32,247 nucleotides of DNA, taken from Bacillota bacterium (lineage in GTDB: Bacteria > Bacillota > Limnochordia > Darwinibacteriales > Darwinibacteriaceae). The stretch spans positions 1-32,247 of the forward strand of contig JAAYOK010000233.1 of the NCBI GenBank assembly GCA_012520355.1. Reading direction: 5' to 3'. The position numbers and the translations under genes were made by a program. Below the pieces are notes generated by a model that saw only the letters and a list, made by a program, of their open reading frames with translations, searched no databases and had not been told where the DNA came from. Below, piece by piece: positions 4,880 through 8,321 of the stretch (position 1 is its first letter; each line of letters opens with the position of its first letter).

Positions 4880-4901
4880 ACATTTATTAGGAGGACCGTT
4901 A

Positions 4902-6137
4902 ATGAACCGCGTAGTGGTTACCGGAATAGGACTCATAACTCCCCTCGGGGATAAGGAAGAATTATGGAAAGCACTTTTAGCAGGTGTTTCGGGAGTAAAG
5001 CGGATCACGCGCTACGATGTCTCTGATTTCCCTGTGCAAATCGGTGCAGAAGTTCGTGATTTCGATCCCACAGATTATATGGATCGCAAGGAAGCCCGGC
5101 GCATGGATCGTTTCGCCCAGTTTGCCGTTGCTGCGGCTCAGATGAGTTTGGCTGATGCCAAGCTAAATCTACCCTTTGCTCAGCCTGAGCGTGTCGGTGT
5201 TATGGTCGGGTCTGGCATTGGGGGAATTGAGACTGTTCAACAGCAAACGAAAGTCTTTTGGGAAAAAGGCGTGAGTCGTGTAAGTCCCTTTTTTGTCCCC
5301 ATGATGATCCCCGATATGGCCAGTGGGCAAGTTGCGATTCAAACGGGGGCTAAGGGGATTAACTCCTGTACCGTTACGGCTTGTGCCACAGGGACCCACT
5401 CCATTGGCGATGCCTTTCGCGTGATTGCTCGGGGCCAGGCTGATGTGATGTTAACTGGGGGGAGCGAGGCTGCCCTGTGTCCTTTGGGGCTCGCTGGCTT
5501 TATGTCGGCTAAAGCACTCTCCATTCGCAATGACGAACCCGAACGAGCATCCCGTCCCTTTGATAGGGGTCGCGACGGCTTCGTCATGGGGGAGGGAGCA
5601 GGGGTCTTGGTCTTAGAAAGCCTAGATCACGCTTTGGCAAGGAAAGCACGGATCTACGGAGAAATCGTGGGCTATGGAGCGAGCGGCGATGCTTACCATA
5701 TTACCAGTCCAGCACCTGAAGGCGAAGGGGCCCAGCGGGCCATGACAGAGGCTCTAGCCGATGGAGGTCTGCAAGTGACCGATGTCGATTACATTAACGC
5801 CCATGGTACGTCCACCGTGTACAATGATCTTTATGAGACCATAGCAATTAAGCGAGTGTTTGGCCAACACGCCTCTAAACTCGCCATAAGTTCTACGAAA
5901 TCCTTGACGGGGCATTTATTGGGTGCAGCTGGTGCAGTTGAAGCAGCAGTTTGTCTTCTAACTCTACAGGAGCAAATTGTCCCCGGGACCTATAATTACG
6001 AAGAAGCTGATCCAGAGTGTGATTTGGATTACGTCCCCAATCAACCTCGTAGGATGGATCTGGACGTTGTGTTATCCAATTCCTTTGGTTTTGGTGGGCA
6101 TAACGCCACGCTAGCATTAAAGAGGTGGGAAAATTAG
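4902..6137 (+). CDS. fabF: 3-oxoacyl-ACP synthase II
   Basis: FabF elongates acyl-ACP chains by decarboxylative condensation with malonyl-ACP. With the ATG at 4902, preceded by AGGAGGA, it has 411 residues, the standard length. The Cys-His-His centre is C161 in [13 protein letters not shown]301 in NAHGTST and H338 in [11 protein letters not shown], with the conserved K333. A small deviation is VYND after HGTST where PLND is common. The adjacent rnc gene begins on the base after the stop codon, so the two are cotranslated. The frame is open upstream to 4872 through the hairpin, but no start there has a binding site. Confidence 0.96.
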
Positions 6138-6830: not shown

Positions 6831-7433
6831 TTAGAACTGGCGTTCTTGGTGGATAATTTGTCCCACACCGGCAAGATCGGGATCATAAGGCTTCAGTGAG
6901 ACCGGATCTAGAATCTGCTGATCCAGGGCTTTTCCAATCACGAACTCGCTCTTGCCCTGTAACAGGACCCAAGAACCTGGGGGGTAACTTGTTCCCTTGG
7001 AGACAATGACCAGATCGCCTTTCATAAACCTAGGGTTATAGCGATTTGTGTTGATACGAACAGCGAATAAACCTCGTGGATGGGGTTGGCTATGTAGAAA
7101 AAGCCACTCCTTCCCGGGGTTTTTCTTTTGCGGATTCCAGTCGAGCAGAGGTAAAGACACAAGATAGTAGGTGATCCCTTCCATATCTACGCTGATCGAT
7201 GTTGGGTACGGAGTTTGGCTGCCGAGAACTCGGCGTCTAAACTCTTTGATACCCCCGACATTACCTTTTTCAAGCCAGTAGTATACAGACTTGCTATCAG
7301 CGAACTTGAGCTCTTTGGCGATCTGCTTCACTGTAATACTGGGATCCTGTTTGATCAATGCTGCGATTTGGTCTATGTAGTTTGAATCAGGCAAGTTCCG
7401 TCCCATCCTCACGTTGGTATCTATCTGGAACAT
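6831..7433 (-). CDS. HTH regulator with degenerate LexA/S24-like C-terminal domain
   Basis: I read this 200-residue protein as a DNA-binding regulator. Residues about 18-70 form a predicted helix-turn-helix (ITVKQIAKELKFADSKSVYYWL). Residues about 112-195 resemble the LexA/CI peptidase fold: FAVRI, then PRFMKGDLVIVS, PPGSWVLLQ, VIGKAL and GVGQIIHQ. Aligned by eye to E. coli LexA, the catalytic serine region (GMSM) becomes NTNRY (128-132), so no serine is present, while K168 sits where the lysine of the dyad would be. It is therefore unlikely to self-cleave. The start is uncertain: ATG 7433 has AAGGA too close, and ATG 7406 is an alternative. It diverges from the sigma factor gene, and two palindromes lie between them. 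Partner or inducer is unknown. Confidence 0.6.
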   Translation of the reverse strand: MFQIDTNVRMGRNLPDSNYIDQIAALIKQDPSITVKQIAKELKFADSKSVYYWLEKGNVGGIKEFRRRVLGSQTPYPTSISVDMEGITYYLVSLPLLDWNPQKKNPGKEWLFLHSQPHPRGLFAVRINTNRYNPRFMKGDLVIVSKGTSYPPGSWVLLQGKSEFVIGKALDQQILDPVSLKPYDPDLAGVGQIIHQERQF

Positions 7434-7456
7434 TCCTTGCCCAGAAAGAAAAAACC

Positions 7457-7478
7457 TTTACATAGTCTATGGTGTAAA
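7457..7478. repeat. Palindrome 1 in the regulator-sigma intergenic region
   Basis: The core CATAGTCTATG (7461-7471) is an 11-base inverted repeat inside a longer imperfect dyad bounded by TTTACA and TGTAAA. It shares the half-site CTATGGT with palindrome 2. It is a candidate operator for the adjacent regulator, close to that regulator's own start. Confidence 0.5.
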
Positions 7479-7509
7479 AAGGGGTTGGCTGGCGAAAGGG
7501 CCTGATTCG

Positions 7510-7526
7510 GACCATAAACTATGGTC
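7510..7526. repeat. Palindrome 2 in the regulator-sigma intergenic region
   Basis: GACCATA-AAC-TATGGTC is a perfect inverted repeat with 7-base arms. Its centre (7518) is 52 bases from that of palindrome 1 (7466), close to five helical turns, which would place both on one face of the DNA. The rest of 7434-7625 shows no confident -35/-10 pair; TTTCCA 7540-7545 with TGTAAT 7563-7568 (17-base spacing) is a weak candidate for the sigma gene. Confidence 0.55.
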
Positions 7527-7625
7527 ATCTGGAGTGCAGTTTCCATCCTAGAGGTATAGAGCTGTAATCCAAGCATATACATGGACTAGATGGCCTGGAC
7601 CAAAGAAGGGAAGGAAGGTGCTTTT

Positions 7626-8321
7626 ATGGGGGACAATCAGAGCATCGATCTGCAGCTGATCAGAAGGCTACGGGAAGGTGACGAGGAAGCTCGGGACAGC
7701 CTTGTTGTAAAGTATATACCCATGGTCAAATACATCATCCGCAACTACTACTCAGCCTTCCTTGACTTCGAGGACCTGTTACAGGAAGGACTCATTGGAC
7801 TTTTAAGTGCCATCGAGGAGTATAAGCCGGATGAATATGATGTGAAATTCAGCTCCTTTGCCTACATCTGCATTATTCGCCGAGTCTATAATGTCATTAA
7901 ACTAACAACGGGAAATAAACATCGTCTCTTAAATGAGGCTACATCTCTACAAACGCCTGTCGTTGCAGATGAATCCCGCTCCTTACTCGATCTAGTGGCT
8001 GCGGCTATTCCAGAGTTTGATCCAGAAGCTGTGTACGAAGACAAGTATGTGAGCGAAGTGATTGGTAAAGTACTGCAAAACCATCTCTCCATTTTGGAAT
8101 ACGCCGTCATCGTGCGTCTCCTACGGGGTTATACAGCCAGGGAAATTCAGGAAGAGATGGGGATTAGCCTAAAGGTCATCGATAATGCCCGCACCAGGGT
8201 GAAAAGCAAACTGCGGAGACTCCTTGACGAACATGGCTCCTTATTGAGCCCAGGGGTTCCCACCAATGTTCGCAAGCGGGAGGATCTCTATCTCCACCTA
8301 CCTGTTGGCCGGGGCTCCTGA
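7626..8321 (+). CDS. SigH-like RNA polymerase sigma factor (sigma-70 family)
   Basis: A 231-residue sigma factor that would direct RNA polymerase to alternative promoters. Region 2 spans about 20-105, with the core-binding segment FEDLLQEGLIGLLSAIEEY and the region 2.3/2.4 segment KFSSFAYICIIRRVYNVIK. Region 4 spans about 150-203, with the helix-turn-helix GYTAREIQEEMGISLKVIDNA. Region 3 is reduced to a linker. The pattern, including KHRLLNEATSL and a RSLLDLV stretch, resembles B. subtilis SigH. I start at ATG 7626, which follows AAGGAAGGTG; ATG 7590 in frame lacks a binding site. A tail of about 25 residues follows region 4. The location is not the usual sigH locus near secE/nusG/rplK, so this may be a paralogue. 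Its targets are unknown. Confidence 0.8.
   Translation: MGDNQSIDLQLIRRLREGDEEARDSLVVKYIPMVKYIIRNYYSAFLDFEDLLQEGLIGLLSAIEEYKPDEYDVKFSSFAYICIIRRVYNVIKLTTGNKHRLLNEATSLQTPVVADESRSLLDLVAAAIPEFDPEAVYEDKYVSEVIGKVLQNHLSILEYAVIVRLLRGYTAREIQEEMGISLKVIDNARTRVKSKLRRLLDEHGSLLSPGVPTNVRKREDLYLHLPVGRGS

Follow-up and report, generated by a model that had tools for sequence, protein, structure and literature searches.

Two related palindromes lie between the divergent genes for a helix-turn-helix regulator (reg) and a SigH-like sigma factor in this Bacillota bacterium. Judged from sequence comparisons, they probably represent a paired operator of reg, to which dimers of the encoded protein Reg would bind cooperatively and autoregulate their own gene, probably by repression. 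All 30 closely studied reg loci, which come from two families, retain the pair with its position and spacing, and the spacer has diverged. These observations largely support the cooperative binding or looping by one regulator that an earlier note on this DNA had suggested.

The window, i.e. the whole stretch of 32,247 nucleotides that was analysed, is contig C81 of a draft genome (2.56 Mb in 333 contigs, 88.8% complete). The gene order at the locus is fabG-acpP-fabF-rnc, reg (minus strand), the SigH-like sigma gene (plus strand) and smc, where fabG, acpP, fabF and rnc were named by reading their translations. The open reading frames of reg and of the sigma gene extend over 6831–7433 (minus) and 7590–8321 (plus), and both palindromes sit within the 156 bp that separate them. 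The sigma gene presumably starts at ATG 7626 and not at 7590, and would therefore span 7626–8321. NCBIfam SigH models score below their cut-offs for this gene (best 128.4 bits against 208). A SigH-like paralogue of the 7590–8321 frame with 37% identity is found at G000:C27:3887-4480, beside which the frame next to smc represents a second SigH-family gene. The 36 near genomes carry sporulation genes: a SigE match above the family cut-off is present in 30 and Spo0A is above its cut-off in 32. Four of these genomes (G022, G025, G027 and G029) gave weak matches to the rnc-smc sigma gene, with E values of about 1e-26 to 1e-29; their SigE matches are weak too, and Spo0A is over the cut-off in three of the four.

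The palindrome that the earlier note had centred at 7466 was found as CATAGTCTATG at 7461–7471. It belongs to site 1 (CATAGTCTATGGT, 7461–7473), which immediately precedes the −35-like box of the reg promoter and has its centre at about −43 from the predicted start. Site 2, at 7510–7526, is the palindrome centred at 7518, GACCATA-AAC-TATGGTC, with perfect arms of 7 bp, and lies at about −95 from the predicted reg start. The coordinates agree with the proposed centre spacing of 52 bp, about five helical turns. The relatedness of the palindromes is evident as well, since the 13-mers CATAGTCTATGGT and CATAAACTATGGT (7513–7525) agree in 11 of 13 positions (85%) in direct register. Single copies are unremarkable: allowing up to two mismatches, the 13-mer pattern has 11 matches in the window where 4.9 are expected, and as many as 11 were attained in 2 of 100 shuffles. 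In the window alone, an over-strict setting of the pair pattern gave no match in the real sequence and none in each of 20 shuffles. Hence, the pair owes its more-than-chance status to the comparative evidence across reg-bearing loci.

A reg gene was present in 44 of the 100 genomes searched (own genome counted). The best 30 of these 44 loci, including the window, were studied closely and represent 13 genera in two families. The order rnc, reg, sigma gene is constant in all 30; smc follows in 29 (L030 ends before smc), and fabF adjoins rnc in 21. Both sites are present in each of the 30 loci, with the consensus AAAACCTTTACATAAANYATGG for site 1 and CATAAANTATGG for site 2. Site 1 was placed via a CCTTT[AG]C anchor and the best second dyad was sought at offsets of 47–56. 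This second dyad scores 9/9 in 26 loci and 8/9 in four, and was located at 50–53 bp in every case. The individual spacings are 50 bp (two loci), 51 bp (12), 52 bp (10) and 53 bp (six), with a mean of 51.7 and a standard deviation of 0.9. A regular expression for the pair matches 26 of the 30 reg-locus intergenic regions, compared with a mean of 0.005 of 30 and a maximum of 1 in 200 dinucleotide shuffles; this control covers the regular-expression count only. Mean identity between genera is 0.83 at site 1 and 0.78 at site 2, whereas two spacer segments of 12 bp have values of 0.30 and 0.28 and the region past site 2 has 0.25. Since the spacing varies within 3 bp and the spacer sequence is free, the arrangement bears the signature of protein sites on one helix face. 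Paired dyads at a fixed helical spacing beside the regulator's own promoter are thus conserved with the regulator in two families. The earlier note had stated that absence of the motif from relatives with conserved flanking genes would speak against its proposal; in both families the motif is conserved along with these genes.

For comparison, 19 loci without reg were fetched, of which 10 were counted (L080–L086, L088, L089 and L091). These loci keep rnc, the sigma gene and smc with a gap of 110–424 bp between rnc and the sigma gene, and a protein search detected no reg there or elsewhere. Neither the sequence ACCTTTA[CT] nor a dyad of the form CAT[AG]N4[ACT]TG was found in any of the ten. Present among them are CATATA (L080, L081 and L088) and an AATATAT run (L082–L086 and L089). 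The other nine loci (L087, L090, L092–L098) were left out because of intervening genes, room for an undetected reg or a contig end. The dyad scan took in four of this excluded group (L087, L090, L093 and L094) and found no dyad by the pattern; one TAAAGGT occurs in the rnc end of L087 and one CATATA in L093. The dyad pair thus travels with reg, and the sigma gene can be kept without it. However, the dyads belong to the reg promoter, so that their joint loss with reg is expected whatever protein binds them.

The −35-like box of the reg promoter, AAAGGTTTT (plus-strand AAAACCTTT), occupies 7451–7459 on the minus strand, and a SigH-type −10 element, AAGGAATGT (7430–7438, minus strand), follows after 12 bp. 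The SigH consensus is given as RNAGGAWWW for the −35 and RNNGAATWW for the −10 element in PMC8510167. The window promoter AAAGGTTTT-N12-AAGGAATGT matches RNAGGAWWW-N11-12-RNNGAATWW in 8 of 9 positions per element. Site 1 directly adjoins the −35-like box in all 30 loci, where the box reads AAAGGTTTT (23 loci), AAAGGTATT (six) or AAAGGGTTT (one). The earlier note had mentioned neither this contact nor that the pair forms part of the reg promoter. SigH-dependent sporulation promoters resemble the window in the −35/−10 layout, and GAAT is found at the −10 offset of the window in 17 of the 30 reg loci. They differ at −35, where they have AGGA and the reg loci AGGT (AGGG once). GAAT at this offset is confined to the family of the window (17 of 22 loci, compared with none of eight in the other family). 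It is missing from 13 of the 30 loci, five from the window's family and eight from the other, and seven of the 13 have TAAT one base nearer. The −35-like box is thus shared by these loci in general, and a SigH assignment fits the family of the window well and loci outside it less well. If this promoter is correct, the ATG at 7433 falls inside the −10 element and translation of reg most likely starts further in at TTG codon 14 (7394), so that the gene would span 6831–7394 on the minus strand. The position of codon 14 is occupied by TTG or GTG in many relatives too, and its distance to site 1 is 62–89 bases in 29 of 30 loci and 117 in one.

On the other side of the pair, a probable sigma gene promoter, GTATAG-N14-CATATACAT, is located at 7554–7582 (plus strand). 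It resembles the consensus of sporulation SigE/SigK promoters. A CATAT box is present in 29 of the 30 stretches (absent from L026); of these 29, 21 also have, by eye, an upstream ATA element. Site 2 and the CATAT box are 41–110 bp apart over the 29 loci and 56–65 bp in 20 of them. Since this spacing is looser, fixed contacts at the sigma promoter are disfavoured.

A separate observation concerns a SigK-like sporulation sigma gene, which is interrupted by an element in the six family-f1 genomes that were compared (L099–L104). In L099 (G000:C321:2500-7870), the halves of the gene are located at 496–957 and 4880–5224. The element contains a serine recombinase with Resolvase and Recombinase domains and a HAD/beta-phosphoglucomutase-like gene. 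A GH65 sugar phosphorylase-type gene is also found in four of the six (L099–L102), and is missing from L103 and L104. Similar half SigK matches occur in other f1 genomes, and the gene of G015 is undivided. The insertion resembles a skin-type (sigK-intervening) element that carries metabolic cargo.

A more distant set comprises 15 loci, in which reg is 24–46% identical over the matched part. CCTTTA is present upstream of reg in 13 of them (L055 and L056 lack it), and by eye the dyad takes the form TTTAC-N9-GTMAA, exactly in six of the 13 and with one base off in seven; in L052 and L053 its arms are perfect over 6 bases. A second dyad of the site-2 kind was not found at 35–64 bp in the 13 distant CCTTTA loci, where the best candidates reached 5–7 of 9 at 37–55 bp, and the five-turn pair was not seen beyond the two families. 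The conservation that the earlier note had proposed to check applies to the whole motif in two families (30 of 30), whereas the 13 more distant loci show the −35-adjacent dyad only. By eye, the two near families differ from the distant loci in the inner dyad bases and also in the residues surrounding the recognition helix. Five loci of family f11 (L044, L045, L049, L050 and L054) all have a weak CAGAAANCAAGT-like element at 43 bp from site 1, which may be another operator arrangement at about four turns. L055 and L056 (family f7) share the stretch GAAAATATTGTACCATACTTGCTTGG upstream of reg, which contains an ACCATA half-site. A spoVS-like gene is located between reg and the sigma gene in many distant loci; spoVS genes are described as SigH-dependent in Bacillus thuringiensis and B. 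subtilis in PMC8510167. Between reg or rnc and spoVS, a further gene recurs in L043, L049, L051, L055–L057 and L090, and its translation has, by eye, a motif like E-I/V-H-V/A-L-A.

Reg combines a helix-turn-helix with a C-terminal domain of the LexA/CI-type fold. The helix-turn-helix region is rich in invariant residues, e.g. SVYYWL in 30 of 30 sequences, and the mean majority fraction is 0.79 for this part (residues 18–70) compared with 0.54 for residues 80–198. In the structural model, the helix-turn-helix part is of moderate confidence (10-residue means of 56–77) and the C-terminal domain has 10-residue mean pLDDT values of 80–94. Comparison of this model with known structures identified the fold: the best match of the C-terminal domain is LexA of Thermotoga maritima (Z 11.6, rmsd 2.9, 109 residues), where the VIA-align Z of 11.6 refers to Reg residues 92–200, and lambda CI (8gmu) follows with Z 10.6; Foldseek gave an E value of 1.1e-5 to 3k2z. 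The position of the catalytic serine, assigned by its spacing to the conserved P134 (Ser three residues before Pro) and not by superposition, is occupied in the 30 Reg proteins by R (11), E (7), D (5), Q (3), S (2), A (1) and N (1), i.e. the serine is lost in most of them. The candidate catalytic lysine at position 168, assigned by eye, is R in 15, K in 14 and A in one. Pfam PF00717 (S24) scores 20.3 bits with Reg, below the gathering score of 23.3, and matches two of 10 Reg members at E 0.01. When solved structures were searched by sequence, no credible match emerged. By its modelled fold and the lost serine, Reg probably works like a LexA/CI-fold repressor that does not cleave itself. An origin of reg from a prophage was also considered and rejected, because Reg had no match among 50,697 phage records and none of 29 pattern matches in viral contigs was confirmed. 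PHROGs gave weak matches for one of two proteins.

A search for the motif elsewhere in the genome, which had been proposed as a check, revealed no second recurrent place for the pair among 36 genomes, of which 30 have reg and six lack reg and any such locus. Of the 30 genomes with reg, 26 show the pair pattern at the reg locus; 13 other matches are scattered, compared with five in a reversed control. Site 1 together with the −35 box, allowing up to two mismatches, gave 74 matches in the 36 genomes. Of these, 29 are at the reg locus (one is a site 2) and 45 elsewhere, compared with 33 in the control, and one of the 45 is within one mismatch. The single-site pattern has 24 other matches (two being the window's own site or an exact copy) versus 16 in the reversed control, and in the own genome two further exact single-site matches versus none in the control. 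A many-site regulon was rejected, since none of the three patterns yields a second recurrent locus, although a few extra Reg target sites may exist beyond the reg locus. A single recurrent locus is expected of a local autoregulator.

For the autorepression that we favour, we propose the following course. A Reg dimer would bind site 1 beside the −35 box of its own promoter and a second dimer would bind site 2, five turns further upstream. Both dimers would face the same side of the DNA and their C-terminal domains could touch via a short loop or bend, which would sharpen binding. In CI, the LexA/CI-type fold mediates dimerisation and co-operativity. Occupancy of site 1 would block sigma region 4 at the −35 box. 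Hence, reg would be made while a SigH-family sigma factor is active and would then shut itself off. Since the sites lie between divergent promoters, Reg may perhaps tune the sigma gene as well. It is possible, though doubtful, that protease-dead Reg and the second SigH-family sigma factor form a dedicated feedback switch, retained across much of a bacterial class with sporulation genes as a divergent gene pair flanked by rnc and smc and often accompanied by spoVS. In this switch, the sigma factor would read the reg promoter and Reg, bound cooperatively to the five-turn pair, would feed back on both genes.

The main rival reading reverses the sign: Reg would activate its own promoter from a class II position at site 1, with site 2 helping, and thus form a self-sustaining switch. 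The sites at about −43 and −95 from the predicted start are near −41.5 and −92.5, which are positions typical of activators. Moreover, the promoter could need help, since AGG in the −35 box is followed by T or G in all 30 loci, where the consensus has A, and the −10 element departs in 13 of 30. However, the dyad arm nearer the −35 box continues into it (CCTTTACATA), favouring occlusion, and LexA/CI-fold regulators are most often repressors, so that activation appears unlikely. A different, unlinked transcription factor might also bind the sites and control reg, because sequence data cannot name the binder and the joint loss of dyads and reg does not discriminate. Such a wider regulator should have other conserved sites, but none recurs in the 36 genomes; furthermore, the differences in operator and recognition helix between near and distant loci are compatible with co-evolution of Reg and its operator. 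We regard an unlinked factor as improbable. A repeat search pairs both copies as inverted and 92% complementary, which would allow an RNA hairpin in an mRNA leader (13-bp arms, 37 bases between). This cross-complementarity is automatic, however, since each copy is itself palindromic. In addition, both copies lie upstream of both predicted promoters and would be in neither transcript, and a spacing of 50–53 bp with a diverged spacer is needless for a hairpin loop. The hairpin is hardly credible and was rejected on the grounds of the self-complementary copies and their position.

The proposed autoregulation by Reg dimers on the paired operator has parallels in known systems. Lambda CI is similar to Reg in its C-terminal fold and in the paired dyads upstream of its own gene, and co-operativity across integral turns is expected of CI-like proteins. 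In contrast to CI, Reg has not kept the catalytic serine, is encoded chromosomally beside rnc and smc, and has sites spaced by five turns instead of adjacent operators. LexA shares the helix-turn-helix and C-terminal fold, but in Reg the serine position is R, E, D, Q, A or N in 28 of 30 sequences and Lys occupies the candidate lysine position in 14 of 30. The Reg operators do not fit the SOS-box consensus. The proposed Reg system resembles RcoLS20 of plasmid pLS20 in autoregulation, divergent promoters, paired cooperative operators and a DNA loop. As described in PMC4207663, RcoLS20 differs in that it is tetrameric and controls conjugation, that one of its operators overlaps the divergent promoters, and that its motif of 8 bp occurs at multiple sites. 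Autoregulators with paired operators are thus a known kind, and the present case is ordinary in kind and apparently undescribed: our literature search found no paper on a LexA-fold regulator that is protease-dead and neighbours a SigH-family sigma gene next to smc.

If the proposal is correct, a regulator, its operator and its promoter would be gained for a mostly uncultured group that is known here mainly from metagenome assemblies. Because the spacing varies naturally from 50 to 53 bp and some loci naturally lack reg, reporters allow a direct test of helical phasing and of autoregulation. The SigH-family sigma gene beside smc, so far uncharacterised, would be tied to a specific feedback regulator, and Reg would be a case in which the LexA/CI fold was retained for regulation after loss of the self-cleavage serine.
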